In this document: positions 3,879 through 29,591 of the stretch, in pieces | Position numbering within the stretch: position 1 is the stretch's first letter | How the letters are laid out: each line of letters begins with the position of its first letter | Source: a virus | Direction: 5' to 3' (one strand) | Virus record (IMG/VR): IMGVR_UViG_3300024262_000107 | Coordinates: 1 to 37,638 of that record | DNA length: 37,638 bases | The notes under the pieces: generated by a model | What the model was told of the DNA's origin: nothing | Seen by the model: the letters and a program-made list of their open reading frames with translations, nothing else | Database searches by the model: none | Made by a program: the position numbers and the translations under genes

Positions 3879-3884
3879 TTTTGC

Positions 3885-3892
3885 TATCTTTG
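3885..3892 (+). promoter_or_regulatory. Candidate structural-gene promoter (-7 box)
   Basis: TATCTTTG matches the Bacteroidota TAnnTTTG box exactly. No clear TTG lies 20 nt upstream. Transcription would begin close to 3900, just before the GTG start I choose for the terminase. Confidence 0.4.
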
Positions 3893-3910
3893 GATTATAA
3901 AAGAGGCAAA

Positions 3911-5479
3911 GTGGAACAACTACAAAGGGAGATTTTAGTTAGTAAACCTCAGCAGACGATTTTAGATAGTACCGCTACGAGAACGCTTATGTTGTCGGGA
4001 GTAGGTAGTGGAAAGACGCACGTTGGAGCATTAGTATCGGCAGAGTATATCACTCGGTTTCCGGGCATCAAAGGATTTATTGGAGCGAACACTTATGGGC
4101 AGTTGAGCAAATCGACGTTAGCCGGTATATTCAATGTATGGAAAGAATATTTTGGATGGGTTGAGGGCGTGAAATACGTTGTTGATAAGCAACCGCCGAA
4201 GCACTATAAAATAGTTGGAGCAAGATACAAGAGTTATGAGAATATAATTAGTTTCGATAACGGGCACGTAATTATAACTGCGAGTTTGGATAATTATAAG
4301 ATGATTGATGGGACAGAATTTGCGTATGCTATTTTGGATGAGACGAAAGACACTAAAGAGGAAGCCGTTAAGGAGGTAATTATAGCGAGAATGAGGCAAC
4401 CGGGTATGTATAGAAGTGGAAAAGATGTGTACTCAATAGACCACTTGAATAGATATATTGAGGAGGGTAAAGTTGAGAAACGAATGGATGATGGAGTTGA
4501 GGTATATTGGAACTTGTTTGATGATACGAAAATAATGGGGTTCAATCCATTGTATGTATTGACGAGTCCGGCGAAAGTTCAATGGCTAAATGATTGGTTT
4601 GATATAAACGATAATCTTGAGGAGATTAGTACGAGGATATTTTCTAAGACGGATTTCTTTCATAAAGTGATCGGTAATAATTCGGTAACGATTAGTAGTA
4701 CGTACCACAATAGAGGGAATTTATCAGTTGGTTATATTGAGAATTTGGTTGATGGTTATAGGCATAACCCTCAGTTAATTGATATGATGATTTACGGTAG
4801 TCCGATTGCTAAGAGTGGAGGAGAGTGGTTTAGTAGGTTTAAGAGAGACGAGCACGTTAAGAAATTGGAGTATAATCCGGAGTACCCGGTTCACGTTAGT
4901 CTCGATTTCAACGTGGTTCCGTATATGACCTTACTTGTTTCGCAGTTCATATTTGATGAGGAGCGTAATGTGATGGAATGGAATACATTGAGAGAGTATT
5001 GTTTGCCGAATCCAAAGAATAATACTGAGGATATTTGTAATGAGTTTCTATACGATTACGCCGGAAATATTAAGGCGTTGTTTTTTACGGGGGACCCGAG
5101 TGGAGCGAATAGGCAGACAGTATCGAAACAGATAAAGCATAATTTTACGGTAGTTGAAACCGTGTTAGGCGATTATTGTGGGAATTATAGTAATAGAGTA
5201 ATGAGGTCCGCACCGGGTTTAGCGAAGTGTAGAGATTTCTTTAATAAGATGTTTGCCGGAGGGTTCAAGATTGAGGCGAATATAGATGAGAGTTGTAAGA
5301 ATTTGATAACAGATTTTGAGTTTCTGAAAGAGGACGTAAATGGAGCGTATAAGAAGCCGAAAGTAAAGAATAGTAACACCGGAGAAACGTATGAAAAGTA
5401 TGGGCATTGTGCCGATGCTTGGAGGTATCAAGGAGTATCAGCGTTCGAGGATGAATTTAGAGATTATGAATTTAGATAG
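3911..5479 (+). CDS. terL: Terminase large subunit
   Basis: DNA-packaging motor and genome-cutting nuclease acting at the portal. From GTG 3911 the protein has 522 residues, normal for the family; a TTG at 3881 would add 10 residues but overlaps the -7 box. The Walker A motif GVGSGKT lies at about residues 30-36 and Walker B (AILDET) has its Asp-Glu at 143-144. The C-terminal RNase H-fold nuclease shows the expected acidic residues in LDFNV (D332), GDPSG (D395) and HCADAWRY (D502). The small genes immediately upstream do not resemble a small subunit. Its 3' end overlaps the next gene. The function is certain; the start codon is less so. Confidence 0.93.
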   Translation: MEQLQREILVSKPQQTILDSTATRTLMLSGVGSGKTHVGALVSAEYITRFPGIKGFIGANTYGQLSKSTLAGIFNVWKEYFGWVEGVKYVVDKQPPKHYKIVGARYKSYENIISFDNGHVIITASLDNYKMIDGTEFAYAILDETKDTKEEAVKEVIIARMRQPGMYRSGKDVYSIDHLNRYIEEGKVEKRMDDGVEVYWNLFDDTKIMGFNPLYVLTSPAKVQWLNDWFDINDNLEEISTRIFSKTDFFHKVIGNNSVTISSTYHNRGNLSVGYIENLVDGYRHNPQLIDMMIYGSPIAKSGGEWFSRFKRDEHVKKLEYNPEYPVHVSLDFNVVPYMTLLVSQFIFDEERNVMEWNTLREYCLPNPKNNTEDICNEFLYDYAGNIKALFFTGDPSGANRQTVSKQIKHNFTVVETVLGDYCGNYSNRVMRSAPGLAKCRDFFNKMFAGGFKIEANIDESCKNLITDFEFLKEDVNGAYKKPKVKNSNTGETYEKYGHCADAWRYQGVSAFEDEFRDYEFR

Positions 5480-7997: not shown

Positions 7998-9920
7998 ATG
8001 GCTTTAGATTTAGAACAAGGATTTGAAAAATTAGTTCAGACCGTAATGCTCGATAAACAAGGGTACCACAAAGATTATAAAAGGACAGTTGAGTTAGCTA
8101 ATTTATATGAGCGGTTAATTACCGGCGAAGAAGTAGCTAAATTACTAAAGCAGTTCACTCCAAGAGAAGATAAAAAACAGTTCGAGCAGAGAGTTCGATT
8201 AACGCAGTTGATTACCCCGGCAATTTCAGAGAAGATTATGCAACCGTTCAATAAGGTGGCGAGAATTGATAATGTGAATAAGTCGATTATGTTCGATGAT
8301 GAGGAGACAGAAACGATTGAGAGAAAGATCGGTGTAGTTGAGTTAGCGTTAGAGCAATTCTACGGAGACGAAACGTTGGATGATTATATGGAGACAAGGT
8401 TCACGGAGTTGGTGTTCACGGACCCGAATAGTTTTATAGTAGTTGAGTTTGATGAGTTCGATAATGAGACGAATAGAGCAAAGCCGTTCCCGTTAGAAGT
8501 GAGTAGTGAAGAAGCTATTGATTACAAGTATGTGAATAACGTTTTACAATATTTGATAATTCAGAAGCCGATAACGTACTTGGTTGAATCGAAGAATGGA
8601 ATATCCAAAGAGAAAGGTAGTGAGTTCAGAATTTACCTTGAGAATTCGTTAATTATATTAAAGCAAACCGATGCAAATTTGGGAGGTTTATCAGCGAAAA
8701 GTATTGTGTTAGGTAGTGATGAAATTCAGATATTGAAATTAGAGGAGAAATCGTTTATAGTTACAGTTGCGAATCCGATGGGAGGAGAAGTTCAAGCGAT
8801 AAGAGTAGGTTACAAAAGAGATATTACAACTAAGGGGAGAACATACGTTTCTCCTTTGCACCCGGCAGTTCCTCGTATGATGAAAACGGTTAAGTCTGTG
8901 AGTGAATTAGACCTTACGACTACCTTGCATACGTTCCCTCAGAAATTACAGTACGTACAAGCGTGTAAAGGCGTTAAAAATGACCGTTGTAGAAACGGAT
9001 TGAACCACAAAGAGGAGACTTGTAAGGCTTGTAATGGTAGTGGAGTAGTTATTCATTTGAGTTCAGCAGACGCAGTTACTTTGCCGATGCCGAAAGACAA
9101 GGAGGATATGCTCGATTTAGATAAGTTGTTGATTTATAAAACACCGCCGGTAGATTTGATTAAGTGGCAAGATGAGTATGTTGAGAAGTTGGAGAGAAAG
9201 TCGCTAACAGATGTGTTTGTTTCAGAGAGTTTGAATCAGATTACGAAAACGCAGACGGCTACTGAGAAAGAGTTGGATATGGAGAGTATTTATGATACGT
9301 TGTTGCCGTATGCAAATAAGTATTCTGCGGTTTGGCGTAAGATTGCAAAGATGAGTTCAGTTTTCACGGATAACGAGGATGTGATAATTGTGCATAAATT
9401 CCCGAAAGATTTTAAGTTAAAAACAGAGAAAGCGTTATTGCAAGATTTGAAGTCGGCGAAAGAAGCCGATGCTCCTCCATTTTTAAAGACTGAAATTGAG
9501 AATGATATTGCGAATAAGGTTTTTGCGGACCAACCGGAAAAGATGAGGGAGTATAGAGTGAAGCAACAACACGTTCCGTTTAGTGGAAAAACGCCGGAAG
9601 AAATTACTATGAGTATTAATATGAATTTGACGACTGCATTTGATAAGATATTGTATGCGAATTTCGATAGCATTATTACGGAAATAGACCAAGAGCAAAT
9701 CAATGCGAATAAAGATTTCTTTGTATTAGGTTACGATGAGAGAATAGAGTTGATTAAGTTGAAAGTTGCTGAGTATATTAAGAGAATAGATGATGAGAAA
9801 AGTTCTGCGATAGCGTTCAATACAGAGGAGATTGAGGATGTTGAGGATATATTAGATGAGGACGGTAATCCGATCGAAGATATTACAAAGGAAGCAACTG
9901 AGGACGTAATTGAGGAATAA
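7998..9920 (+). CDS. Portal protein with inserted Cys-rich (DnaJ-like) finger
   Basis: Position directly after the terminase cassette and before a MuF-like gene, and the length (640 aa), fit a portal protein: the dodecameric ring through which DNA enters and leaves the head. The N-terminal half has the acidic helical character of SPP1-like portals. The acidic tail (from about residue 610) is also common. Unusual is the segment at residues 323-349: Cys323, Cys331, Cys342 and Cys345, ending CKACNGSG, which matches the CxxCxGxG repeat of DnaJ zinc fingers. It shares one base with the next gene (TAATG). The portal call rests on context and length more than on a motif. Confidence 0.8.
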   Translation: MALDLEQGFEKLVQTVMLDKQGYHKDYKRTVELANLYERLITGEEVAKLLKQFTPREDKKQFEQRVRLTQLITPAISEKIMQPFNKVARIDNVNKSIMFDDEETETIERKIGVVELALEQFYGDETLDDYMETRFTELVFTDPNSFIVVEFDEFDNETNRAKPFPLEVSSEEAIDYKYVNNVLQYLIIQKPITYLVESKNGISKEKGSEFRIYLENSLIILKQTDANLGGLSAKSIVLGSDEIQILKLEEKSFIVTVANPMGGEVQAIRVGYKRDITTKGRTYVSPLHPAVPRMMKTVKSVSELDLTTTLHTFPQKLQYVQACKGVKNDRCRNGLNHKEETCKACNGSGVVIHLSSADAVTLPMPKDKEDMLDLDKLLIYKTPPVDLIKWQDEYVEKLERKSLTDVFVSESLNQITKTQTATEKELDMESIYDTLLPYANKYSAVWRKIAKMSSVFTDNEDVIIVHKFPKDFKLKTEKALLQDLKSAKEADAPPFLKTEIENDIANKVFADQPEKMREYRVKQQHVPFSGKTPEEITMSINMNLTTAFDKILYANFDSIITEIDQEQINANKDFFVLGYDERIELIKLKVAEYIKRIDDEKSSAIAFNTEEIEDVEDILDEDGNPIEDITKEATEDVIEE

Positions 9921-12423: not shown

Positions 12424-13440
12424 ATGGCTGATGGAAATATAGCTTGTGCGGATTACACTTCGATACAAGTAATGGCAGACGATGTTTGGGCGGATAACGC
12501 TTCAAACAAACAATATATCGCTCGTTGTGAGGCGGCAAAAGCAATTTTGCAAGAACAAACGGCTGAGTTTATTGAGTTAAAAGATCCGAATAAAGACCGT
12601 ACGGTAAAAATCCAATGGATTGATAATTGTGCGGCAGTTGCAGAAGATTACGTTGCAGATTGCGACCACGTTGGTCCGAAAGGAGAGGTTACTTGTGAGG
12701 AGTACAAAATAGAGGAAGCGAAGCAATCAGTTTACTGTATTGAGGAGGACAAGTTTAGAGGTTCTACCGTTGATATGCAGATGATGGTTGCTAAAGGTTG
12801 GCTAACCGCTATGAAGAAACTTGACGAGGAAATTGCGAAGTCCGTAATTGCTAAGATTGATAGTTTCGTAGGTGTTAATGAATTTACGGGTGCACCGGGA
12901 CAAGTTGCCGGTACCGATACGTTCATTCCCGCCGGAAATTGGGGACCGGAGATATTTGCGTATTTTGCGGAAGCGGCTATTATGAATAGTTCAAATGATG
13001 TGTTTTTATTAGACGGAAACAACTTATTTAGACAAAAGTGGTTAGCTCAGTACAACCAATTAAACGCTAATGAAAAAAGTGATATTGCTATGTTGGAAAC
13101 AATTAGAACGTATCACGATTTATTCAATATGGCGGCTGTTGTAGGTGCTAATAAATTGTTTATGATAGATAGAGGAGCGGTTGCTCTTGCTACTAAGAAT
13201 CGTTACTCTACTACTCCGAGAGAAATCTTGACGGGTGCTGATAGAGTTCGTTTTGCGGTACCATCTAAGAATTTACCGGGAGTTATGTACGATGTGATTT
13301 ATACTACTAAGTGTGTTGCTGAGGATATAGTTCATACTTGGAAATTTGTTGCAAGGTTTGATACTTTCTTGAACCCTACGAGTGCGTGTAATCCTACTAA
13401 TACGGGAGTATTGTCGTTCACTTGTGGAACTGCTCCATAA
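12424..13440 (+). CDS. Major capsid protein, Cys-rich
   Basis: 338 residues, after the scaffold gene and followed at once by a strong terminator, as expected for the most abundant virion protein. The long alpha/beta sequence with a helix-rich centre (WLTAMKKLDEEIAKSVIAKI) and a segment around ANKLFMIDRGAVALATKNR fits an HK97-fold capsid of the type without a protease. Nine Cys residues are spread through the chain, which is high for an icosahedral capsid protein. Assignment is by position, length and general pattern. Confidence 0.8.
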   Translation: MADGNIACADYTSIQVMADDVWADNASNKQYIARCEAAKAILQEQTAEFIELKDPNKDRTVKIQWIDNCAAVAEDYVADCDHVGPKGEVTCEEYKIEEAKQSVYCIEEDKFRGSTVDMQMMVAKGWLTAMKKLDEEIAKSVIAKIDSFVGVNEFTGAPGQVAGTDTFIPAGNWGPEIFAYFAEAAIMNSSNDVFLLDGNNLFRQKWLAQYNQLNANEKSDIAMLETIRTYHDLFNMAAVVGANKLFMIDRGAVALATKNRYSTTPREILTGADRVRFAVPSKNLPGVMYDVIYTTKCVAEDIVHTWKFVARFDTFLNPTSACNPTNTGVLSFTCGTAP

Positions 13441-13468
13441 GGAAACTACATAATGAGTTAAAAAAAAG

Positions 13469-13495
13469 AGCCTACTTTTTAAGTAGGCTTTTTTT
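13469..13495 (+). terminator. Rho-independent terminator after capsid gene
   Basis: AGCCTACTT (13469-13477) and AAGTAGGCT (13481-13489) form a perfect 9-bp stem with a 3-nt loop, flanked by A- and T-runs. It is the strongest terminator in the window. Confidence 0.9.
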
Positions 13496-15056: not shown

Positions 15057-15662
15057 ATGATTATAGCGTTAGGAGAAATACTGAGAAATAAGCTAAGTGG
15101 TTTTACGTATGTAGATAGATTAGCCGGTGTTGTTCAAGTTGCCGAAAAAAAGGATATTTCAAAAAAGATAAGTCGGTTCCCGATTGCTTGTAATGTTAGT
15201 GGATTAGATTGTGGAGAGGATGGGTTGTTGAATTTCTTAATTCCCGATGATAGGAAAAAGAGTGTGATTTATCTTGAGGATTTGAGTGGAGCGTTATTTC
15301 TTGGTAGAAAAGGAAATGATTTGAATTATAATTGTAGAATTCGATTGATAGGGTGGTTGAATTTAAAGAAGTTAGGGCACGAGAATGATTGTAGTGTAAC
15401 GGCGAAAGTTGTTGCTCATATAATTACGAGACTTGAGAGTTCTCAGCAATTCAACGATGCTCCGTTTACAAGGATTAGTATAACGGCAGTAAATCAACAA
15501 CAAAAGAGTCCGGTTATATTCAATAAGTACACGTACGTTCAGTCGCTTACGCAGTTCCTTATGCACCCATTTGATTACTTTGCGATAGACTTTGTAGTGA
15601 ACTTTACAATAAATAAGAATTGTGTGCCGGAATTTAATGCTAATGTACCCGAAGAATGTTAG
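15057..15662 (+). CDS. Tail terminator/neck protein candidate
   Basis: 201 residues, starting 2 nt after the previous stop. Its slot between a tail-completion protein and the tail chaperones is where the tail terminator is normally found. The sequence is alpha/beta with several strands (CRIRLIGWLNL, TRISITAV, IDFVVNFTI) and conserved-looking Cys (IACNVSGLDC and CVPEFN), consistent with such a fold. Length is somewhat above the usual 130-150. Context-based. Confidence 0.5.
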   Translation: MIIALGEILRNKLSGFTYVDRLAGVVQVAEKKDISKKISRFPIACNVSGLDCGEDGLLNFLIPDDRKKSVIYLEDLSGALFLGRKGNDLNYNCRIRLIGWLNLKKLGHENDCSVTAKVVAHIITRLESSQQFNDAPFTRISITAVNQQQKSPVIFNKYTYVQSLTQFLMHPFDYFAIDFVVNFTINKNCVPEFNANVPEEC

Positions 15663-15997
15663 GAATTTATGAGATAATATACTTCGTGTTTTATGCTATG
15701 ATGATTGGAGCGATTAGCTTTGTTTATGTGTGCATTTTGCAACGTCCGAATATGGTTTTGGGACCGATTGTAAAAGTTTTCGATCGTTTCTTTACGAAGC
15801 CGGGCAAGTTGCTTAGATTTAGGAAGTGGATTTATAAGCCGATTATGGAGTGTGCTCATTGTAACGGTGGGCAGTTTGCATTGTGGTTTTATTTGTATAA
15901 CTATTGGGAGCATAGTTATAGTTTATTTTGGCATATAGGTTTTATAGCGATAGCAGTATTAACAGTAGAAATCTTAATTAATAAATATGGAGAATAA
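15656..15997 (+). CDS. Membrane protein with a CxxC motif inside the tail operon
   Basis: 113 residues with a hydrophobic N-terminal helix (residues 3-28), a basic cytoplasmic stretch (KPGKLLRFRKW), then MECAHCNGGQFALWFYLYNY (CAHC) and a second or third hydrophobic helix at about 88-107. The CxxC followed by a Trp-rich membrane helix recalls DUF1360-like small membrane proteins. It is out of place in a tail gene cluster, where the major tail protein would be expected. It overlaps both neighbours, so it is co-translated with the tail genes. Function unknown. Confidence 0.65.
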   Translation: MLGIYEIIYFVFYAMMIGAISFVYVCILQRPNMVLGPIVKVFDRFFTKPGKLLRFRKWIYKPIMECAHCNGGQFALWFYLYNYWEHSYSLFWHIGFIAIAVLTVEILINKYGE

Positions 15998-16475: not shown

Positions 16476-16699
16476 CAGAGGACGAGGAGGATGTAAGACC
16501 AAAGAGTATTAGGAAGCAAAGGGAAGAATGTAGAGAGTATTGGGCGAACTTATTTTGGGCAATAGCTGATGGTAAGCCGACAGAGTTTAACGAAATACGT
16601 AGAACAGAAATATTCGAGTTTTTTAGATTGCTGAAAATACACGAGAAAAGGCAAATTAAGAGTTTGAAAAAAATAGAGAGTTATGGCAGAAAACATTGA
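16466..16699 (+). CDS. Tail assembly chaperone, T extension of GT fusion
   Basis: About 77 codons in the -1 frame relative to the G gene, ending TGA 16697-16699 inside the tape-measure gene. The frame has no ATG, GTG or TTG suitable as a start between its preceding stop near 16359 and its conserved-looking core, so it can only be made as a G-T fusion of roughly 237 residues. The core (REYWANLFWAIADGKPTEFN, then a helix with FEFFRLLKIHEK) is typical of T-type extensions, which contact the tape-measure protein. Not counted as a free gene. Confidence 0.65.
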   Translation, partial: KQVTEDEEDVRPKSIRKQREECREYWANLFWAIADGKPTEFNEIRRTEIFEFFRLLKIHEKRQIKSLKKIESYGRKH

Positions 16700-19600
16700 A
16701 TTTGATTTAGTTGGAGACGCTTCCAATTTTAGTGCTACGGTAACGAGTGCGACTGATGATATGCAAACGCTTAATAAGGAGACGAAAGAGTTTGGCGATA
16801 TTAGTAATAAGTCGTTTAAGGAGGGGAGTGATTCAGCAAATAAGTATGAGAAAGAGATCGAAGATACTACAAAGGCGACTACTAAGCAGTCGGCTTCAAT
16901 AGGTGCTTTGAAAGAGGAGCTAAATAGATTAGCAACCGCTCGAGATAAATCTCAGAATACGGATGAGATTAAAAAATTCAATAAGCAATTAGATGAGGGA
17001 GAGAAGAAAGTTAAGCAATTAACGAACGCCGGTAGAGAGGGTTTTGATGATATGGGTAATGCTATTGATAATACCGGTAGTAAGTTTGGTGGAATGTTAG
17101 ATATAGCCGGTGGGTTTGGTATTGCATTTGGTGTTGAGGCTATTATAGGAGGAATTATTCAGATTGGTGGAGCCGTTATTGATACAGTAGGCCAATTTAG
17201 AACTTTGAGAGGAGAGGTTCAAACTTTGACGGGTTTAACCGGAGACGGATTGGATGCAGTAGTCGTTAAAGCTACGGCTATTGCGGAGACTTTCGACCAA
17301 GATGTTAATGAAGTAATTAAGGCGGCAAATGTTCTATCGAATGAGTTTGGATTTACTCAAGAGGAAGCGTTAGAAAAAGTACAAGCGGCGGCGTTAGGTG
17401 TTGCCGGAAGTACGGACGAATTACTTGAGCAAACGAAAGAGTATGCGAGTCAGATTAGAGCCGCCGGAGGAGACGCAGACGATTTGTTTAATATCATAAA
17501 TAAGAGTGCAACAGATGGCGTATTTTCAGATAAAGGTATTGATGTAGTTAAGGAATTTGGGTTGAGAATTAGAGAGCAGACTCAAGGTTCAAGAGACGCA
17601 TTGGAAAACGCATTTGGTAAGAACTTTACTGATGAGATTTTTGGCGGAATAAACGACGGTTCACTTACGAGTATTGATGCGTTGGAGAGGATAAGTGAGA
17701 AGATGAATGATTCTACGGTTCCGGCGAGTGAATTACAGACTGTAATTGCAGACGTATTCGGTGGACCGGGAGAGGATGCCGGTTTAGCTTATTTGCAGAC
17801 GCTTACGGATATAGGTGGAGCAGTTGAGGATTTGACAGATACGACGAACGCACTAACAAGAGAGCAAATAGCGAGTTTAGATGCAGAGGAGAGGTTGGCG
17901 ACCGCTCAAAATGAATTATCTAAGCTATTTGATAATCAAGCCGGTAATACGTTCTTTACTCAATTACAAGCAGTAGGTTACGAATTTCTTACGGGTATAA
18001 TAGAACCAATACTCGACCTTTTCGGGACGTTAAAGGACTCATTTACCCCTTTATTTGATGCTTTAGGAGAACTTAAAACTGCAATATTTGGAGCCGGAGA
18101 GGGTTTTAGTTTTATGGATGTAGTTTTAGCTCCATTGAAAATATCTTTAGAGATAATAGGTTTCGTTTTAGGATTAGTAGGTCAAGCGTTAGGATTCGTT
18201 GTAAGAGAGATTACCAATTTTGTTAATGAGAGTCCGATTTTGACGTTGGCGTTTGAGGCGATTGGTAATGCGGTTGATTCAGTTATTGAGCAGTTCCAAA
18301 ATTTCAAGGATTTATTAAGTAGTGGTTTTGATGCAGTTTCAGCCGCCGGATTAAAAGCGGCGAGAGAAATAGATGAGAATTATACTCAGCCAATTTTGAA
18401 ACAATTAGAGACGGTAGATGCTACAAGGAGAGAAAATTTGAAACAGAATATATTGAGAAATGAGCAACAACTTGCGAGTAATTTGAAAATATTAGAGTCT
18501 GAGGGGTTGTTGAATTCTGCGTTAGCTGAACAAGTAAGGGCGAAACAAGCGGCGAATAAAACGATTTTAGCTGAAATTAAAAATCAAGAGGATGCAGAGA
18601 AGAAATTAGTTGAAGATTCAGAGAAAGAAAAAGATAAAGTTAGAGAGGCAAATAATAAGAAAGCGAATGATGCGGCGAAGAAAGCCGGAGAGGATAGAAT
18701 AAAAACTCTTGAGAAAATACAAGGCGATTTGGATAAGGCGTTAGAGCGATTAGCGAAAGATAGTGCAAAGGCTGATTTAGATAGATTAGAGGGACCGGAA
18801 TTGTTCGAGAGACAGAAAGAAAACGCACTTACTGAGATCAAAATTTTAGAGGATTTGATTCTTGCGAAAGGTCAGTTAATAGCTGATGAAACGGGAGATA
18901 TATTTGAATTGACAGAGAACCAAATAGAGCAGTTAGAAAATTTAAGGCGAGAAGCGAGAGAAGTAGAGTTAAAAGCGATTTCGGAATTTAATAGAAAAAA
19001 GGCGTTGGCTGAACTTGACGTTAAAGAGGCAACGATAGATATTAAAGAAGCTACGGAGATTGAAACAGTTGAAGATTTAGTAAAGCCGGAAGATACGTCA
19101 GCACAAGATTTCGAGTTAATTAAGCAAGAGGAGGTTTTATCAATTCAAGAGAAGTATGCGAAAGAAAGAATAGCATTGTTGGAGGAGGAGATAGCAATTA
19201 AAGAGGCGTTATATAAAGAGGATGGTAGTGTTGATGCTTCGGAGCAAAACGAACTCGATAGATTAGAACTTGTAAAAGAGAATTTGAATGATACCGTTAA
19301 GGCGACTCAAGATGCTCAAGAAGATTTGCAAAAAAAGAGAGGTAAAACGAGTATCGCTGAATTATTGGGAATGACTGATGAGGATTTTGGTGCGTTAAAA
19401 GAGGGGTTAGGAGTTGCGTTGAACGCCGCTTTAGATGGTATTGGTTCGGTGTTGGATGCACAAGCAGAAGCCGCCGCAATTAGAACTGAGGAATTACAGA
19501 ACGCAGAGGATGAATTGAGAGACGAGCTCGATACAGAATTAGCATTGAGTGAAGCCGGTTTTGCATCGAATGTAGCCGGAAAGCAAGAGGAATTGGCAGC

Positions 19601-20336
19601 AATAAAAAAGGCAAAGGAAAAGGCTCAAAAAGACCAAGAGGAGATTGCGAAAAAGCAGTTTTTATTGGAGACGGCTTTGCAAGTTCAAGGATTAATTACG
19701 TCGTCGATTCAGATTATAGAGGGGTTCTCAAAAATTCCGATTGTTGGTTTACCGTTAGGTATTGCGGCGGTTGGTGCTATGTTAGGGTTCTTTATTAGTG
19801 CTAAGGCTAAGGCGTATAGTGCTATTGGTTCGGGACCTACGGCAGAGAAAGGAGCAGTTGGAGATAATACGGGTATGATTCAAGGACGTAGGCACTATAA
19901 CGGTGGAGAAAGATTCTTGGACCACTTAGAAGTTGAGGGTGGAGAGAAATGGGGTATATTGAATAGAGGAGCATCGAGAAAGCACGGAGGTGTATTTGAG
20001 GAGTTTACTTTAGGTCTGAATGACGGTAGAAATCCTAATGAATTGATGAGAGATTTATTACACGGTACCGGAGTTTATATGAAGCCGGGTGTTGATAATA
20101 AAATTCAAGATAGAGTACTTTCAATTAGGCAGAGAGAGGTTGTTATGTTGGCGAATGTTACGAATGGAAATATGGAGAAATCTATGAATAGTGTTGATAG
20201 GAATTTAGCTGATTTATTAGGATTTGAAAAAGGAAAGATTAGAATAGTTCCTACGCCGACCGGTAGATGGGAAATTGATGATGTTAATAACAAGAGGACG
20301 TTCGTAAAATATACCGAAAATGGCACAAACAAATAA
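16683..20336 (+). CDS. Tape-measure protein
   Basis: 1217 residues, the expected long helical protein after the chaperones; it sets tail length and passes into the host envelope during DNA injection. N-terminal coiled coil (residues 1-130), hydrophobic segments near 138-172 (GFGIAFGVEAIIGGIIQIGG), 484-512 and 1018-1042 (IPIVGLPLGIAAVGAMLGFF), and a very long charged coil from about 570 to 1000. The C-terminal part (EKGAVGDNTGMIQGRRHYNG, then GVFEEFTLG) resembles the tail end of tape measures in Bacteroidota phages. No lytic domain recognised. Confidence 0.92.
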   Translation: MAENIEFDLVGDASNFSATVTSATDDMQTLNKETKEFGDISNKSFKEGSDSANKYEKEIEDTTKATTKQSASIGALKEELNRLATARDKSQNTDEIKKFNKQLDEGEKKVKQLTNAGREGFDDMGNAIDNTGSKFGGMLDIAGGFGIAFGVEAIIGGIIQIGGAVIDTVGQFRTLRGEVQTLTGLTGDGLDAVVVKATAIAETFDQDVNEVIKAANVLSNEFGFTQEEALEKVQAAALGVAGSTDELLEQTKEYASQIRAAGGDADDLFNIINKSATDGVFSDKGIDVVKEFGLRIREQTQGSRDALENAFGKNFTDEIFGGINDGSLTSIDALERISEKMNDSTVPASELQTVIADVFGGPGEDAGLAYLQTLTDIGGAVEDLTDTTNALTREQIASLDAEERLATAQNELSKLFDNQAGNTFFTQLQAVGYEFLTGIIEPILDLFGTLKDSFTPLFDALGELKTAIFGAGEGFSFMDVVLAPLKISLEIIGFVLGLVGQALGFVVREITNFVNESPILTLAFEAIGNAVDSVIEQFQNFKDLLSSGFDAVSAAGLKAAREIDENYTQPILKQLETVDATRRENLKQNILRNEQQLASNLKILESEGLLNSALAEQVRAKQAANKTILAEIKNQEDAEKKLVEDSEKEKDKVREANNKKANDAAKKAGEDRIKTLEKIQGDLDKALERLAKDSAKADLDRLEGPELFERQKENALTEIKILEDLILAKGQLIADETGDIFELTENQIEQLENLRREAREVELKAISEFNRKKALAELDVKEATIDIKEATEIETVEDLVKPEDTSAQDFELIKQEEVLSIQEKYAKERIALLEEEIAIKEALYKEDGSVDASEQNELDRLELVKENLNDTVKATQDAQEDLQKKRGKTSIAELLGMTDEDFGALKEGLGVALNAALDGIGSVLDAQAEAAAIRTEELQNAEDELRDELDTELALSEAGFASNVAGKQEELAAIKKAKEKAQKDQEEIAKKQFLLETALQVQGLITSSIQIIEGFSKIPIVGLPLGIAAVGAMLGFFISAKAKAYSAIGSGPTAEKGAVGDNTGMIQGRRHYNGGERFLDHLEVEGGEKWGILNRGASRKHGGVFEEFTLGLNDGRNPNELMRDLLHGTGVYMKPGVDNKIQDRVLSIRQREVVMLANVTNGNMEKSMNSVDRNLADLLGFEKGKIRIVPTPTGRWEIDDVNNKRTFVKYTENGTNK

Positions 20337-23300
20337 ACTGAGGTTTTTTCATACTGAGGATTTAGATTCAGACCGTAGCGGTTGGAGGCAAGTATATCCA
20401 CTTGGACCAAAAAAATACGAATGGAAGAAAGATAAGAGCGAGGTTTTTTATCGGCAAGAACAAAAGGGAGGCTATACCTTTGTGAATAAGTTAGAGGATG
20501 GTATAGATGATTTTGAGTTTTTTAACTCCATTAATAACGATCAGTTATTAAGATGCGTTAAACGGTTCATAGTTACTGAGGAGAATTGTGGAGGTACGTG
20601 GAGAATTGTACATATTGGTAAGTTTACGATGAACAATGGGAAGTTCAATTTGGATAAGTGTAAAATAGAGGTTAAGCAAGATATTGTTGATGAGTATAGT
20701 TGTTTGAAAGAAAACAAAAAAGAGAAGTTTAATATACTTGGTGTTGCTCCGGATGTAACCGTTTTTTCTCCGGTACAGAATAATTTTGAATTTCTTGGTT
20801 GTAGAAATAAAGAGTTCTTAGAACTTGCATTTGGCGGATTGGCTTGTAATGGAACGGGAGGTTGGAAAAAGTTTTTTACAAAGATTGCGTTTAATAGTCC
20901 TCAGCCGAGAACTACAATTTACAATGAGTCTGTGGCAGACGATTATGTTAAAATTGGGCAAGGATTGAACCACGCTTTTTGGATTCGAGAAAGTTTAGGA
21001 TTATTTTCTTTAGAGATTTATAGGTTTGCAGATTCTCAGATTTTATCATTGAATTTTATTGATATTAAAACTACCGGAGTATTTGATAATGATATGGTTG
21101 GTTTTACTGCAAATAATTTGAAGAATTTATATGCTTATAGACCGGATGCAAATATTTTAACAACGATAGTAGCGAACCATCCGAATGATATTATTTGGTT
21201 TGATGTTGAGGATGTATTAAATGAGGGGTATGCTTTTTTCTACGACGATGCTAATGGATTGTACGCTTATGATTTCAATACGGGAATTCTAAAATTTGTA
21301 GCTAATGTTGATATTTCGATCGAGACGGCGACGTTGGTACCGACGTTGAATATAAGCTATGGAGACGGTTTGTTATCTTGGCACAATAACGTTAGTAAAG
21401 ATTTAATGAGTTACAACCCTTTGACGTTCATATCGAGAGTCGTTGAGAATGTTAATAATGTGAAGTTTATTGTTAGCGAAGATGGATTTTTAACTTGGTT
21501 CAATATTGATTTGAACTATATGAATTTACAGAGGAGAGACGATACTACTTTTGAGATAATTTTACTTAGAGATAATCAAGGCGATTGTAGGTATTCAGCA
21601 AGAGAAAATGAGTGGATTGTGTTTGATGATTTAGCTCCAATAGGTGCACAAATTGTATATAATTTGATAACGCTTGGTGCATTTAGTCCGGCAACAAATG
21701 GAGGAGGTGCATACATTCCGCCGAATTTAGTTTATAAGATAGAAAATGGTTGGTTTTTACAAGCCGGTCAAACTATTGTAGATTTTCAAGCACACTATTT
21801 GGATAGTAGAAATCCGAGCATATTGGGTGCTTGGTATAGCTTGAGTATAAACGTTCCTCTTAATGTGGTAATTAATGCCGGAACGGAAGAATTATTGGAT
21901 ATGAGTGCCGGAGTAGAAAGAATTTATATTTCGGGTAAGGCTTCGGGTGGTGGAGTTCAGCCGTATGAGATTTATTCGGTGGACCAAAAAGACGCTTCGA
22001 TTGTTTTAGTAGAAAGTTTGGGGTTATCTACTGATATAAAAAATATGCCGTATTTATGTATGAATAATTGTGAGCAAGTATTGACGGTAAATAAGGAGAG
22101 AGTTAATATTTATAAGGAGAATATTCAGAGAGACGATGAATTGACGGTATGGTTTAGGGAGTCTATAAAGACTATTTGTGTTGGAACGAGTCCGGTTTCT
22201 CCGGGTGCCGGTTGGATATTATATTATAATCAATGTAATCAATTTGGAACTGCTACGTGGGTAAAAGCACCGGTTTTACCGGCACCTCCGTTATTAGATA
22301 TTGCAGAGGGAGGTTGTTTGTGTACTGATGATGTTCCGGATTTTGTTATAGATGCAGACGAATGTATTAGTTTGGACCCGAACGCAACAACTATTAATTT
22401 ATTAATGTTGCCGAATACTGCGTTTACTTCACCTCAAATAAGAGGATTTGTAGAAGCGAAACAACCATTGGGAGCGTTCCCAACAGTAAGAAAATGGTAC
22501 ATAGAAAATCCGAGAGACGGTTCAACTTATACTTGGTCATTTCCCGGATTTGTAGGAGAGACAATTATTACGGGACAAGGAACGCCGATAATAGAGGTTC
22601 AGCTAACCTCAGCGTTTCCGATTACGAATGTAGCTTGTCAAGAAGTTAATCCGTGTTCGGGTGGTCCGGTACCGTTAGCAACTTTACCGTTTATATATTT
22701 ACCTTGGAACGGTTTCCCGTCCGGTGCTTGTACGCATAATATTCCGAGTATTGCAACGACGAATATTTATAGTGGAGGTAGTGCGGTTTTTATTGGTGTT
22801 AGTTTTCCGTCAGTTAGTGGAGCGAGTTCTACAATACTTACAACTTTAGCAGATGGTAGAAAGCAAGTTGTTGCGGTTCACAATGGAGTTGCGTTGAGTG
22901 TTGTGTTTACTTTGAATATTACGGGTTGCGTTGGTTTAAGTAAAACCGTTCCCGTTGTAGCTATTCCGAGTGCCGATATAATTGTAACTCCTTTAGAAGT
23001 TTGTCCGAATGGTTTACAAACGTATAGTATTCCGACTGCGAAGCCGGTTTGTGCCTATACGTGGAGTGTTGATAGTCCGTGTTTTATAGTTGGTCCGATA
23101 GTAGGGACGAGTGTAGTTATTGATATGAATGGTGCCGTTGGTACTGAGGTATTGACTGCAAGTGAGGTTTGTCCGATTACTCCGGTAAATTATCAGTTGA
23201 TTGCTCCGTGTGATAAGTTACATAGCGATAGTTGGTGGTGGATTATTGGGCAAGATACTGAGTATGATAATGCGAGATTGTTGAAGAATGTAATTGAGGA

Positions 23301-24213
23301 GTTAGTAAAGTCTATTTGCCCGGATATAAAGACCGTACGTAGCGACTTTTTTCAATGGAATCCTCTTAATCCATCGTTGATACATTATGTGTACGGTGGC
23401 GTAAATGAGTACAATTATTTGACGATTTCTCAGAAGTCAGATATAAGGAATCCGGGTGCAAGTGAAAACGCAACTATTGGGAATTTAACGTGGGAGACGT
23501 TTGCTGAATGGATGCGAAATATTGAGGTTTATTATATAATTATAGATGAGGAATTACACTTGGAGCATATTAGTCGTTTCAAAGGTGTTACGGGGTTAGA
23601 TTTGACGCAAGGAATTTATCCGGAGTATGCGAAATATCAAAATTCGTTTAGTTATGCTAAAATTGAAATGTCGAGAATTGAGGAATACAGTTGGATGGAG
23701 GCGTTGAACGCAGATTTTGTAGGATTTCCGATAGAGTATAAAGATGTGAATGGAAACTTTAGTTTGTGCGTAAGTGATGAAACAGAGTCGCACGAGTTTG
23801 CAGATTTGACGACAGATTTGAAATTTATCCAAACGAATCCGGGAGATATAGATAATAATGGGTTTGTTATTTTAGCGAATACTTTTGATGGAGTAAATTA
23901 TAACGTAATACAAAACGTAGGATTAATTGGAGGAGTTAATATTCTGAATTCTCCTATGAGTATAGCAATTTTGCAAGATCGTTTTATGAGGTGGAATAGA
24001 ATTTTAATTTTTGGTAATCTTAATAGGCAATATACGATATTTGATAGTTCTCAGTTTTTCAAGAAACAAGAGAAATTTAAAATACCTTTGTGTTGTGATG
24101 TTCCGTTTAGTCCGTTGGATTTAGTTCTTACGGAATTAGGAAAGGGAGAATTAGAAACGGCAGAAATTGATTACGAAAATGATAGTTTAGAGATAAAATT
24201 AAAATACGAATGA
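20320..24213 (+). CDS. Tail tip/hub protein with propeller-like and PKD-like insertions
   Basis: 1297 residues starting inside the tape-measure end. N-terminal ~200 residues carry a Trp-containing GKF pattern (GGTWRIVHIGKFTMNNGKF) as in tail-tip proteins. Residues about 250-440 are a series of strand repeats (NNLKNLYAYRP, ANGLYAYDFNTGILKFV, VSKDLMSYNPLTFISRV) that look like beta-propeller blades. Residues about 670-960 read as two or three PKD/Ig-like domains (TYTWSFPG, CAYTWSVDSP). Residues 967-1297 look like a baseplate-hub domain (ETFAEWMRNIEVYYIIIDEE, LHLEHISRF). The hub thus appears to be split by surface-exposed modules, perhaps for glycan binding. Confidence 0.75.
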   Translation: MAQTNKLRFFHTEDLDSDRSGWRQVYPLGPKKYEWKKDKSEVFYRQEQKGGYTFVNKLEDGIDDFEFFNSINNDQLLRCVKRFIVTEENCGGTWRIVHIGKFTMNNGKFNLDKCKIEVKQDIVDEYSCLKENKKEKFNILGVAPDVTVFSPVQNNFEFLGCRNKEFLELAFGGLACNGTGGWKKFFTKIAFNSPQPRTTIYNESVADDYVKIGQGLNHAFWIRESLGLFSLEIYRFADSQILSLNFIDIKTTGVFDNDMVGFTANNLKNLYAYRPDANILTTIVANHPNDIIWFDVEDVLNEGYAFFYDDANGLYAYDFNTGILKFVANVDISIETATLVPTLNISYGDGLLSWHNNVSKDLMSYNPLTFISRVVENVNNVKFIVSEDGFLTWFNIDLNYMNLQRRDDTTFEIILLRDNQGDCRYSARENEWIVFDDLAPIGAQIVYNLITLGAFSPATNGGGAYIPPNLVYKIENGWFLQAGQTIVDFQAHYLDSRNPSILGAWYSLSINVPLNVVINAGTEELLDMSAGVERIYISGKASGGGVQPYEIYSVDQKDASIVLVESLGLSTDIKNMPYLCMNNCEQVLTVNKERVNIYKENIQRDDELTVWFRESIKTICVGTSPVSPGAGWILYYNQCNQFGTATWVKAPVLPAPPLLDIAEGGCLCTDDVPDFVIDADECISLDPNATTINLLMLPNTAFTSPQIRGFVEAKQPLGAFPTVRKWYIENPRDGSTYTWSFPGFVGETIITGQGTPIIEVQLTSAFPITNVACQEVNPCSGGPVPLATLPFIYLPWNGFPSGACTHNIPSIATTNIYSGGSAVFIGVSFPSVSGASSTILTTLADGRKQVVAVHNGVALSVVFTLNITGCVGLSKTVPVVAIPSADIIVTPLEVCPNGLQTYSIPTAKPVCAYTWSVDSPCFIVGPIVGTSVVIDMNGAVGTEVLTASEVCPITPVNYQLIAPCDKLHSDSWWWIIGQDTEYDNARLLKNVIEELVKSICPDIKTVRSDFFQWNPLNPSLIHYVYGGVNEYNYLTISQKSDIRNPGASENATIGNLTWETFAEWMRNIEVYYIIIDEELHLEHISRFKGVTGLDLTQGIYPEYAKYQNSFSYAKIEMSRIEEYSWMEALNADFVGFPIEYKDVNGNFSLCVSDETESHEFADLTTDLKFIQTNPGDIDNNGFVILANTFDGVNYNVIQNVGLIGGVNILNSPMSIAILQDRFMRWNRILIFGNLNRQYTIFDSSQFFKKQEKFKIPLCCDVPFSPLDLVLTELGKGELETAEIDYENDSLEIKLKYE

Positions 24214-26106: not shown

Positions 26107-26757
26107 ATGAAAAAATTTATAGGATTGATGTTTAGTTTATTAGTTGTAACCGCTTCGGTGTTTGCGTTTAGTATAAGTCCCGAGTTAGGAATAATTTTGC
26201 CGAGTATTGCTATGGCAGTCCCGGTGTGTGCGACGAATTGTAGTACAACTTTACCGCCGGTTTCGTTTGATGAATGTCAGCCGGAGACGAATGGTGCTCA
26301 AGTGGCGAAAATTTATATTACGAATATTGGTAATCCTTTAGCGGATTGGACGAATATTTTAGAATGGCAAGCGAGATTAGATAATACGGCAAGTGCGGCA
26401 GATTCTATTTTGACGCTTCACGTTGTTGGTTCTAAACCGGTTCCGAGTTCTACTGAAAAAGAGATTTCTTTGGGTAGAAAGGTAACGGGTAAAAAGACGC
26501 ATATCTTACCGTTTAAAATTGATGAAACGAACGATATTAACCACGAATTTTTGAGACAAAATGAGTGTGGTGGTTCTTACTTAATTTGGTATGAAACTTT
26601 AGAGGGTAAATTATTCGGTGGTACTGAGGGTATAATCGTTTCTTTGCTATTAGATATGAATATTGCCGAGAGTTCAGAGGAGTTAATTCAGAATGAGGGT
26701 AAATTTGAGTGGAAATCTAAGTTTACAGAGGAGCGTATTAACAGTCCTTTAGCATAA
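26107..26757 (+). CDS. Virion tail-tube-like protein with N-terminal signal sequence
   Basis: 216 residues. Residues 1-38 hold a Sec-type signal or membrane anchor (KKFIGLMFSLLVVTASVFAF) and a second hydrophobic stretch ending near AMAVPVCATNC. From residue 60 on, the sequence is a compact beta-rich domain with the pattern KIYITNIGNPLADWTNI, then KEISLGRKVTGKKTH, FKIDETNDINHEFLR and LIWYETLEGKLFGG. I recall this pattern from structural proteins of Bacteroidota phages, and it resembles tail-tube folds. It has its own promoter and may be the missing major tail protein. The N-terminal extension is unusual for a tube subunit. Confidence 0.6.
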   Translation: MKKFIGLMFSLLVVTASVFAFSISPELGIILPSIAMAVPVCATNCSTTLPPVSFDECQPETNGAQVAKIYITNIGNPLADWTNILEWQARLDNTASAADSILTLHVVGSKPVPSSTEKEISLGRKVTGKKTHILPFKIDETNDINHEFLRQNECGGSYLIWYETLEGKLFGGTEGIIVSLLLDMNIAESSEELIQNEGKFEWKSKFTEERINSPLA

Positions 26758-26793: not shown

Positions 26794-27030
26794 ATGGCTA
26801 TTGATTGTACAAATAAAGATATATCTACGGAACAACTAATTAAGGATTTGATTACCGTTGATAATGCCGGAAATCCGGCGATAAGAACAAACGTTTCAGT
26901 TGATTCGGGAGTTAATTTCATAACTTGTGATAATAAAGATTTGACGTTCGATCAGATTTTACGTTCACTTTGTGTTGTTGATTGTAATGGTAAACCGGCT
27001 CTTAATTTGGCGGCGTTCCCTTGCGAATAA
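26794..27030 (+). CDS. 78-aa protein made of two CxNKD modules
   Basis: The whole protein is two copies of one 30-residue module. Residues 3-32 read IDCTNKDISTEQLIKDL with a VD..GNPAI end; residues 43-71 read ITCDNKDLTFDQILRSL with a VD..GKPAL end. The N-terminus of the next gene has a third copy. The module's Cys and Asn-Lys-Asp are invariant among the three. Position next to the tailspike suggests an adaptor or assembly partner that shares its docking site. A terminator follows. Confidence 0.65.
   Translation: MAIDCTNKDISTEQLIKDLITVDNAGNPAIRTNVSVDSGVNFITCDNKDLTFDQILRSLCVVDCNGKPALNLAAFPCE
26800..26889 (+). repeat. CxNKD module copy A
   Basis: First of three copies (residues 3-32 of the 78-aa protein). 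DNA also conserved: a TGTACAAATAAAGATAT core. Confidence 0.65.
26920..27006 (+). repeat. CxNKD module copy B
   Basis: Second copy (residues 43-71); DNA core TGTGATAATAAAGATTT. Confidence 0.65.
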
Positions 27031-27052
27031 AATAAAATACTTACTTATAAAG

Positions 27053-27085
27053 AGCCATATCAAGCAAATTGGTATGGCTTTTTTT
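27053..27085 (+). terminator. Rho-independent terminator upstream of tailspike
   Basis: AGCCATATC (27053-27061) pairs with GGTATGGCT (27071-27079) with one G-U and a 9-nt loop, followed by six T. The next gene starts only 13 nt downstream with no promoter visible between, so the spike probably depends on read-through. Confidence 0.75.
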
Positions 27086-27097
27086 AAACCTTAGAAA

Positions 27098-28750
27098 ATG
27101 GCTGATTGTGAAGTACCATATATAGACTGTGCAAATAAAGATATAACGATTGAAGAATTGTTGAAGTTAATGGCAGTTAAATTACCGGATGGTAGTCCGG
27201 CGTTAAGAACTTGCGGTTGCGGTTGTGGTGGCGATGTACCGGCGAGTAATATGCCGATCGGTAATTCAGTTTTTGTTAATCCTTTAGGAGACGATGCTAC
27301 GGGAGAAAGAGAGAATTTTCATAAGCCTTTTTTAACTTTAAATTCGGCGAAACTTGCGGCTTCTCCGTTCTTGGTAAATGGTGGTTTTATTGTTGCTAAT
27401 GGTACGGGTTATCCGGCACCGGCACCTCAATTAGATGTTCCAACTACGGGAGGAACGGGAGTTGGATTAACGGTTGATTATGAGGAGTCTTTTCCGGGTT
27501 TTATAAGTGTTACAATTAATACTCCGGGAACGGGTTATACGAATGGCGATATAGTTACTATTACGGGAGGTAATGAGGATAGAACGCTTCAATTAAATGT
27601 TGCTCAAGTAATAGATACGATTTATGTTTATGGAGGAACTTATAATGAGGGAAATGTATTACATAAAGAGGGTGTTAAATGGCACTTTTTAGGAAAACCG
27701 ACTTTAAATTTATTTGCTCCATCCGTTTGGAATGATGATGCCGGAATAACTGATATTCAAATTAATGGTGATGCAATAATAAATCATTTTGGTAATGGTA
27801 ATTTTATAAGAGTAAATAATTTTTCGACTGTTAGTATTAATTTTCATAAAGTAACCGGAATAGGTTCGGCAATATTATGGTTAGGTAATGGTAGTGGAAT
27901 TATAAATATAGCTACTAAATTAGAAGTTACAACGGTTAATAGATGTATTCAGTTTGAGGAAGATAATAGATTTGTTATTAATGTTGATGATATTTTCTGT
28001 AATTCATTTATTGGTGGAGTGAGTAATGCAGTTAATTGTAGAGGTAATCATATAGGGCAGTCAATAATTAATGCAAGAATCATAAGACTTGAAAGAGCAA
28101 ATGGTCAGACTGTGGCTGCAAGTCCGACTGCACAAGGTCTTGGAGTTATCACATTCAATATATCGGATAAAATTTCATTTGATAGAGCAACAACAATACC
28201 AATTCAAGGCGATGGTGCAGTAGCATTGTTGGGTGGTACATTCATAATTAATGGTAACATTGATGGGAAAATCGGACACGCTATTGATATCCAAACGGGT
28301 TCCTCTCCAAAATATTTGGAACACAACGGAAACGCAATCAATGATGGTTCACTTCCACTTGTTTACCACGGTGCTGATAGCGGTTTTTGGTCAGCCGGAA
28401 ACTCAACTTTAAAGCTAAATGGTAAATATAAAAGTTCTAATGAAAAGGTAGTACAAAATGGTGGTTTGGCTAATGGTCAAAAGATGTTTATTAATGGAGA
28501 AATAATAAGTGAATATAATGGCATAGTAACAAACTATGGTCTTTATTTAGAAGCCGATGCCGGTGCAACTTTATTAGATAATGTTAAGATCGTTATGGAT
28601 TTAGTGGCAACTAACCCGAGAGGAATTGGTGCCGGTGGACCGAGAGATATTAAGATTGTTCATAACGTTGCGAGTAATGCAGACGTAGATGGAAATATTA
28701 CGAATTTAATTACGGGTACTCAGTATGTTTTTGATACTGATATTGAGTAG
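27098..28750 (+). CDS. Beta-helix tailspike with CxNKD anchor
   Basis: 550 residues. Residues 9-38 are the CxNKD module (IDCANKDITIEELLKL with a DGSPALR end), probably the virion-attachment segment; a CGCGCGG hinge follows. Residues 58-85 (NPLGDDATGERENFHKPFLT) begin a right-handed beta-helix of the pectate-lyase style, with IYVYGGTYNEGNVL near 168-182. An inserted domain at about 102-162 carries the repeated GTGY motif and ends in ITGGNEDRT. The rest is Asn/Gly-rich helical rungs. Such spikes bind or cut surface polysaccharide; no catalytic pair is obvious. Codon use shifts near 28090-28400. Confidence 0.75.
   Translation: MADCEVPYIDCANKDITIEELLKLMAVKLPDGSPALRTCGCGCGGDVPASNMPIGNSVFVNPLGDDATGERENFHKPFLTLNSAKLAASPFLVNGGFIVANGTGYPAPAPQLDVPTTGGTGVGLTVDYEESFPGFISVTINTPGTGYTNGDIVTITGGNEDRTLQLNVAQVIDTIYVYGGTYNEGNVLHKEGVKWHFLGKPTLNLFAPSVWNDDAGITDIQINGDAIINHFGNGNFIRVNNFSTVSINFHKVTGIGSAILWLGNGSGIINIATKLEVTTVNRCIQFEEDNRFVINVDDIFCNSFIGGVSNAVNCRGNHIGQSIINARIIRLERANGQTVAASPTAQGLGVITFNISDKISFDRATTIPIQGDGAVALLGGTFIINGNIDGKIGHAIDIQTGSSPKYLEHNGNAINDGSLPLVYHGADSGFWSAGNSTLKLNGKYKSSNEKVVQNGGLANGQKMFINGEIISEYNGIVTNYGLYLEADAGATLLDNVKIVMDLVATNPRGIGAGGPRDIKIVHNVASNADVDGNITNLITGTQYVFDTDIE
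27122..27211 (+). repeat. CxNKD module copy C (tailspike N-terminus)
   Basis: Third copy (residues 9-38 of the tailspike); DNA core TGTGCAAATAAAGATAT, close to copy A. Confidence 0.65.
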
Positions 28751-28970: not shown

Positions 28971-29591
28971 ATGGGTTATCCGGGAACAAATACGAACACA
29001 AAAGAGGACCCGATACCGATTATAACGGTAGAGGTTACGGATGCAGAAATGACGGCTTTAGGAGTTATCTATACGGGTAATTCTGATAAAAAACCGTATG
29101 TTGTATGTAATGTTCAAGATGTAAATAATAAGGTATATTTTATGTGGTCCGGTACTGCTTGGGTAAATATGCAAGTTCAAGGTGGCGGAGGAGGTAATAC
29201 CGATAGAATTGTTATTATAGATTTTGGATTAAATGGAATTTATGGTAGTAACAATACGACTTTTTTATCTATTCCAATTCAAGTAATGATTGCAAAGATT
29301 TTGTCTGTTGGAGTTTATACGAAAGTTGAGTGTAAGATTAATGTTAGTTATGCTACGGGCGGAGCCTCTACGGGAGAAGTTGAATTATTTGATTATACCG
29401 ATGGTGTTGCTATTGTTCCAACGAATTTAGTTTTGACGAATGGAACTTGGGTAAATAAGACAAGTCCGGCATACGTTGATATATCAGCGTATGAGGGTAA
29501 GGCATTAAGGTTACGTTCGAGGAGAGTTGGAGGAGTGGGTGCGGACCAATGTTTAATAGAGGGTGCTCAGTTAATTTTAAAATTTAGTTAG
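28971..29591 (+). CDS. Fibre/receptor-binding protein with Gly hinge
   Basis: 206 residues. Residues 50-70 contain a KVYFMWSGTAWVNMQ module like the W-x-G-x-W segments of other fibres. A five-Gly hinge follows (QGGGGG, near residues 71-76), then a beta-rich domain (80-206) with the look of a jelly-roll tail-fibre head (VSYATGGASTGEVELFDYTD; WVNKTSPAYVDISAYEGKAL). Probably the terminal binding domain of a short fibre attached near the spike. Binding target unknown. Confidence 0.65.
   Translation: MGYPGTNTNTKEDPIPIITVEVTDAEMTALGVIYTGNSDKKPYVVCNVQDVNNKVYFMWSGTAWVNMQVQGGGGGNTDRIVIIDFGLNGIYGSNNTTFLSIPIQVMIAKILSVGVYTKVECKINVSYATGGASTGEVELFDYTDGVAIVPTNLVLTNGTWVNKTSPAYVDISAYEGKALRLRSRRVGGVGADQCLIEGAQLILKFS

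Follow-up and report, generated by a model that had tools for sequence, protein, structure and literature searches.

Three homologous units of about 31 residues were found in the window (the whole 37,638-base virus record IMGVR_UViG_3300024262_000107), two of them in a 78-aa protein and the third at the N-terminus of the putative tailspike encoded by the next gene. Since a sister phage keeps the same arrangement of two-unit protein and spike N-terminus, the module probably helps to attach or assemble the spike. The data at present comprise a sequence pattern and its conservation, from which we infer docking, a location in the virion, a role of the small protein as an adaptor and termination at an intervening hairpin.

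Genomic setting

The window encoded a large terminase (3881–5479), a portal (7998–9920), a tape measure protein (16683–20336) and a 1297-aa distal tail protein (20320–24213), the last two upstream of the spike and in the same orientation. No phage in the annotated collection was close to the window phage, and the searched collections may omit records very near it. The C-terminal part of the distal tail protein resembled proteins of Bacteroides, Parabacteroides and Croceibacter phages, and because of these distant matches a host among the Bacteroidota is suggested. Two PKD-like stretches (PF19408) were present within the same protein (22495–22665 and 22978–23172). A 604-aa neighbour protein had no match in phages or among IMG/VR peptides. 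Within the tail gene run, a 216-aa protein (26107–26757; 12651–13298 in the sister phage, 61% identity) carried a Sec-like signal peptide, with AMA or AFA ahead of VPVC/LPVC, and matched no family. Elsewhere, the gene at 12424–13440 was followed by a strong hairpin (13450–13495), which has T-runs on each strand and is possibly a two-way terminator.

Three copies of the unit

The 78-aa protein (26794–27030, plus strand, an open reading frame with an ATG start) consists of two units of about 31 residues joined by a 9-residue linker. Unit 1 occupies residues 2–32 (26797–26889, plus strand; IDCTNKDISTEQLIKDLITVDNAGNPAIRT) and unit 2 residues 42–72 (26917–27009, plus strand; ITCDNKDLTFDQILRSLCVVDCNGKPALNL), while unit 3 forms residues 8–38 of the spike (27119–27211, plus strand; IDCANKDITIEELLKLMAVKLPDGSPALRT). 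The local scores of the unit pairs were 69, 75 and 72, compared with shuffle means of 19–21 and maxima of 38–47, and for every pair 0 of 5000 shuffles reached the real score. In a search of its own genome, the 78-aa protein matched the spike N-terminus with an E-value of 2.8e-5. The window contained three occurrences of the core DNA pattern, where 0 were expected, and no further credible copy was found there. Together with the profile search of the sister phage described below, these results bear out the proposal in the initial annotation of three homologous units, one at the spike N-terminus. The units were not back to back, as had also been stated: units 1 and 2 are separated by nine residues, and a 67-base gap with a hairpin precedes the spike gene.

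Sequence searches of the module and the small protein gave no match in Pfam, PHROG or the PDB, with chance matches only in the PDB search of the module, and no similarity to T4 gp10. The AlphaFold model of the small protein was too poor to use (pLDDT 40), and a fold comparison with T4 gp10 is not meaningful at this value. In the models of both the small protein and the spike, the module was predicted as a short helix and then a beta hairpin, but with too little confidence to be relied on.

The putative tailspike

The third unit begins a 550-aa putative tailspike (27098–28750, plus strand), 47% identical to its counterpart in the sister phage. Its AlphaFold model (mean pLDDT 54) showed a regular ladder of strands from about residue 219, with pLDDT of about 70–90 over much of residues 219–420. 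In a Foldseek comparison of the model with the PDB, no match fell below an E-value of 0.001 (best 0.68); the weak matches included the Sf6 tailspike and pectate lyases. The model, of moderate confidence, shows a body rich in beta-strands, putatively a right-handed parallel beta-helix. The gene lies downstream of the tape measure and distal tail genes, as expected for a tailspike, and tailspike attachment domains are normally at the N-terminus. A stretch of about 80 residues near the start of the strand ladder (27353–27595, spike residues about 86–166), containing GTGYTNGDIVTITGG, was absent from the spike of the sister phage.

Conservation in a sister phage

Of 64 IMG/VR loci retrieved with an alignment of the C-terminus of the distal tail protein, one was the sister phage (IMGVR_UViG_3300033144_001492, 41,339 bases), which shared 68% identity with the window in this region and 59% in the terminase. 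Both phages had the gene order ~590-aa protein, 216-aa signal-peptide-like protein, two-module protein, hairpin, spike, 62-aa protein and ~200-aa protein. The sister phage encoded a 76-aa ortholog with two units (44% identical to the 78-aa protein) and a spike that starts with one unit. A profile HMM recovered these three units with E-values of 0.015, 2.5e-8 and 1.3e-5, and the test was not circular because the HMM had been built from the window units only. Across the six copies in the two phages, the common core was C-x4-(I/L)-x2-(E/D)-x-(L/I)-hydrophobic-(K/R)-x8-G-x-(P)-A, and only the Cys, one Gly and one Ala were invariant. The CxNKD motif by which the unit had been recognised was present in the window units; its NKD part is specific to the window and missing from the sister phage.

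The small gene could be a decayed former spike of which the duplicated N-termini are left without function. Receptor-binding proteins (RBPs) truncated to little more than a docking peptide are known, such as the 69-aa second RBP of phage KpV767 (PMC6872550). Against this reading, both phages, which differ widely, have kept the two-unit protein in an open frame and at near-equal length (78 and 76 aa), and 69% of second codon positions were identical compared with 33% of third positions. Codon-position conservation, open frame and retained length led us to largely reject this reading, which we regard as very improbable.

The module was N-terminal on the spike in both phages, the two known members of the group. 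In this one pair, the module-bearing residues 1–45 (48% identical) were not conserved above the whole spike (47%), the neck (residues 46–90) was the more conserved at 71%, and the module was not found on a differing spike body. These values count against docking; in many proteins the surface that docks is conserved above all other parts. They would suit a role of the module in folding or oligomerisation of the spike, with the small protein aiding assembly as a chaperone that does not stay in the virion. In both phages the small gene lies immediately ahead of the gene of its presumed client, which fits as well. Chaperones are rarely the client's own N-terminal unit, and we consider this reading rather unlikely. 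Downstream of the spike, a protein of about 206 aa (28971–29591; about 15250–15855 in the sister phage) was similar between the phages in its first ~75 residues and dissimilar in the remainder. With its conserved N-terminus and changed C-terminus, this layout is a better candidate example of modular attachment than the spike is.

Age of the duplication

The DNA cores of the units had been described as similar and the duplication as fairly recent. This was not upheld: the identities between units were 46, 51 and 58% in DNA and 32–52% at third codon positions, and among the codons common to all three cores, AAT and GAT are strongly and AAA mildly preferred in the window genome. Of the six possible pairings of units between the phages, the positional one scored best (221 compared with 159–210), which alone is a one-in-six outcome. 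Three features common to the phages agreed with this pairing: a DSGV linker, a unit 2 that ends in KPA(L/I)NL and a unit 3 that ends in LPxGxPAxR. The best-scoring match of window unit 2 in the sister phage was unit 2 (16/31 identical). Because the positional pairing scored best and the linker and unit-end motifs agreed with it, the layout of two units plus one is most likely older than the split of the two phages. A recent duplication was rejected on this likely age and on the low DNA identity. Units 1 and 3 of the window were the most alike in DNA (58%; 15/31 residues), so later homogenisation of this pair, or parallel adaptation to a common partner, is conceivable.

The hairpin between the small gene and the spike

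A terminator-like hairpin with a 15-bp stem and a U-tract (27049–27085, plus strand) lies between the two genes. The 76-base stretch 27025–27100 had a folding energy of −19.6 kcal/mol (z −5.3), and a hairpin of different sequence was found at the same place in the sister phage (−18.4 kcal/mol, z −4.8). The U-tract ends only 12 bases before the spike start codon, which leaves hardly any room for a promoter between hairpin and spike; the spike would then have to be expressed by read-through or from a promoter ahead of the hairpin. With the hairpin between them, the spike gene is probably transcribed less than the small gene, and the small protein could be the more abundant product.

Because its gene precedes this conserved hairpin, the small protein may be in excess over the spike, and it carries the module without a spike body. 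Both features would suit a competitor, one of the two roles first suggested for the protein: by filling the tail sites at which spikes dock, it would cap how many spikes each virion carries. Two joined modules, however, point to bridging at least as much as to blocking, and we judge a competitor improbable.

Occurrence of the module elsewhere

Searches for the module on the spikes of other phages recovered it in the sister phage, and there on a homologous spike body; because the module was seen only with this body, movement between different spikes lacks support. In 50 further records of distant relatives, searched whole with a six-unit profile, one short antisense match was found and judged to be chance, and none of these records contained a homologue of the spike. 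Searches with tblastn gave no credible match in the phage collection (78-aa protein, both spikes, module and module consensus) or in plasmids (78-aa protein). IMG/VR was scanned with peptides, with DNA patterns and with an alignment of the three units, and only chance matches were returned; these queries required NKD-like or NK cores, which are absent from the units of the sister phage, and were therefore blind to more diverged copies. A genome scan, which took in no Bacteroidota prophages, returned a single locus, gammaproteobacterial and unrelated. A weak match in Dulem virus 37 (E-value 0.4) was dismissed as chance; the matching 381-aa protein is encoded away from the tail genes, about 2.6 kb from an integrase gene. 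In the passages covered, a paper on Bacteroidetes cryoconite phages (PMC7468147) contained no comparable motif.

The lack of any family matching the module would also be expected if the unit had nothing to do with spike attachment and were a general motif for surface or host interaction, such as a binding site of another phage protein or of a host protein. Such a motif is unlikely, as the unit was found only at the spike N-terminus and in the neighbouring gene.

Proposed role

As a tentative reading, to which we give somewhat less than an even chance, the unit would serve to dock the spike on the tail, and the small protein would be a tail adaptor with two modules. The unit of about 31 residues would be a small module for docking at the tail tip in a siphovirus of the Bacteroidota type, and one N-terminal copy would hold the putative beta-helix spike on the tail. 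In the 78-aa protein, a short linker joins two modules and there is no spike body; this protein would act as a double-headed adaptor in the virion that binds the same tail site, or pairs with the spike's own module, and so lets spikes be mounted. Termination at the hairpin would reduce spike transcription relative to the small protein.

In favour of the docking module and adaptor are the homology of the modules, the gene order of the sister phage, the location downstream of the tape measure and distal tail genes, the N-terminal place on a protein that is rich in beta-strands in its model, the hairpins in both phages and the precedent of the Klebsiella phages discussed below. The spike-attachment system first proposed fits because the module is N-terminal, on a probable beta-helix protein, and lies beside tail genes in a layout conserved in the sister phage; its occurrence on no other body speaks against it. 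The evidence does not separate the adaptor well from a competitor, a chaperone or an unrelated function. We are doubtful of the fuller scheme in which a spike-free double docking protein, kept in excess by a terminator, mounts or limits spikes and so sets their number per virion through a docking module not described before. If the small protein does limit spike number, this would be a simple means of tuning receptor binding.

Comparison with known systems

The mounting of spikes by Bacteroidota siphoviruses seems little studied, and a literature search on the subject found nothing relevant. The pairing of a short module with a self-contained companion of two copies would provide a compact means of attachment and would help to find spikes in unannotated phages. 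Recurring docking modules are known from the T4 gp10-like XD domains common to the CBA120 tailspikes and T4 gp10. The window module resembles them in recurring in several tail proteins, whereas XD domains are larger than its ~31 residues.

In Klebsiella phages of the KP32, KP34 and JD001 groups, short, group-specific N-terminal peptides have been proposed to attach secondary RBPs (PMC6872550). In KP32viruses the docking peptide comprises 29 aa on a depolymerase-type spike, and it is also what remains in the truncated RBP of KpV767; the KP32 and KP34 peptides are thought to dock on a T4gp10-like domain of another RBP (PMC6872550). The window module is likewise short, N-terminal on the spike and specific to a phage group, and by analogy the system may work in the same way. 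Unlike in these phages, no T4gp10-like domain was detected here and the companion consists of two copies of the module. In phage K1-5, spike attachment is mediated by the adaptor gp37 through a T4gp10-like docking domain (PMC6872550). The window also encodes a putative separate attachment protein, but it is the spike's own N-terminal peptide in duplicate. Modular anchors of spikes are known in principle; what is new here is the module family and its layout.
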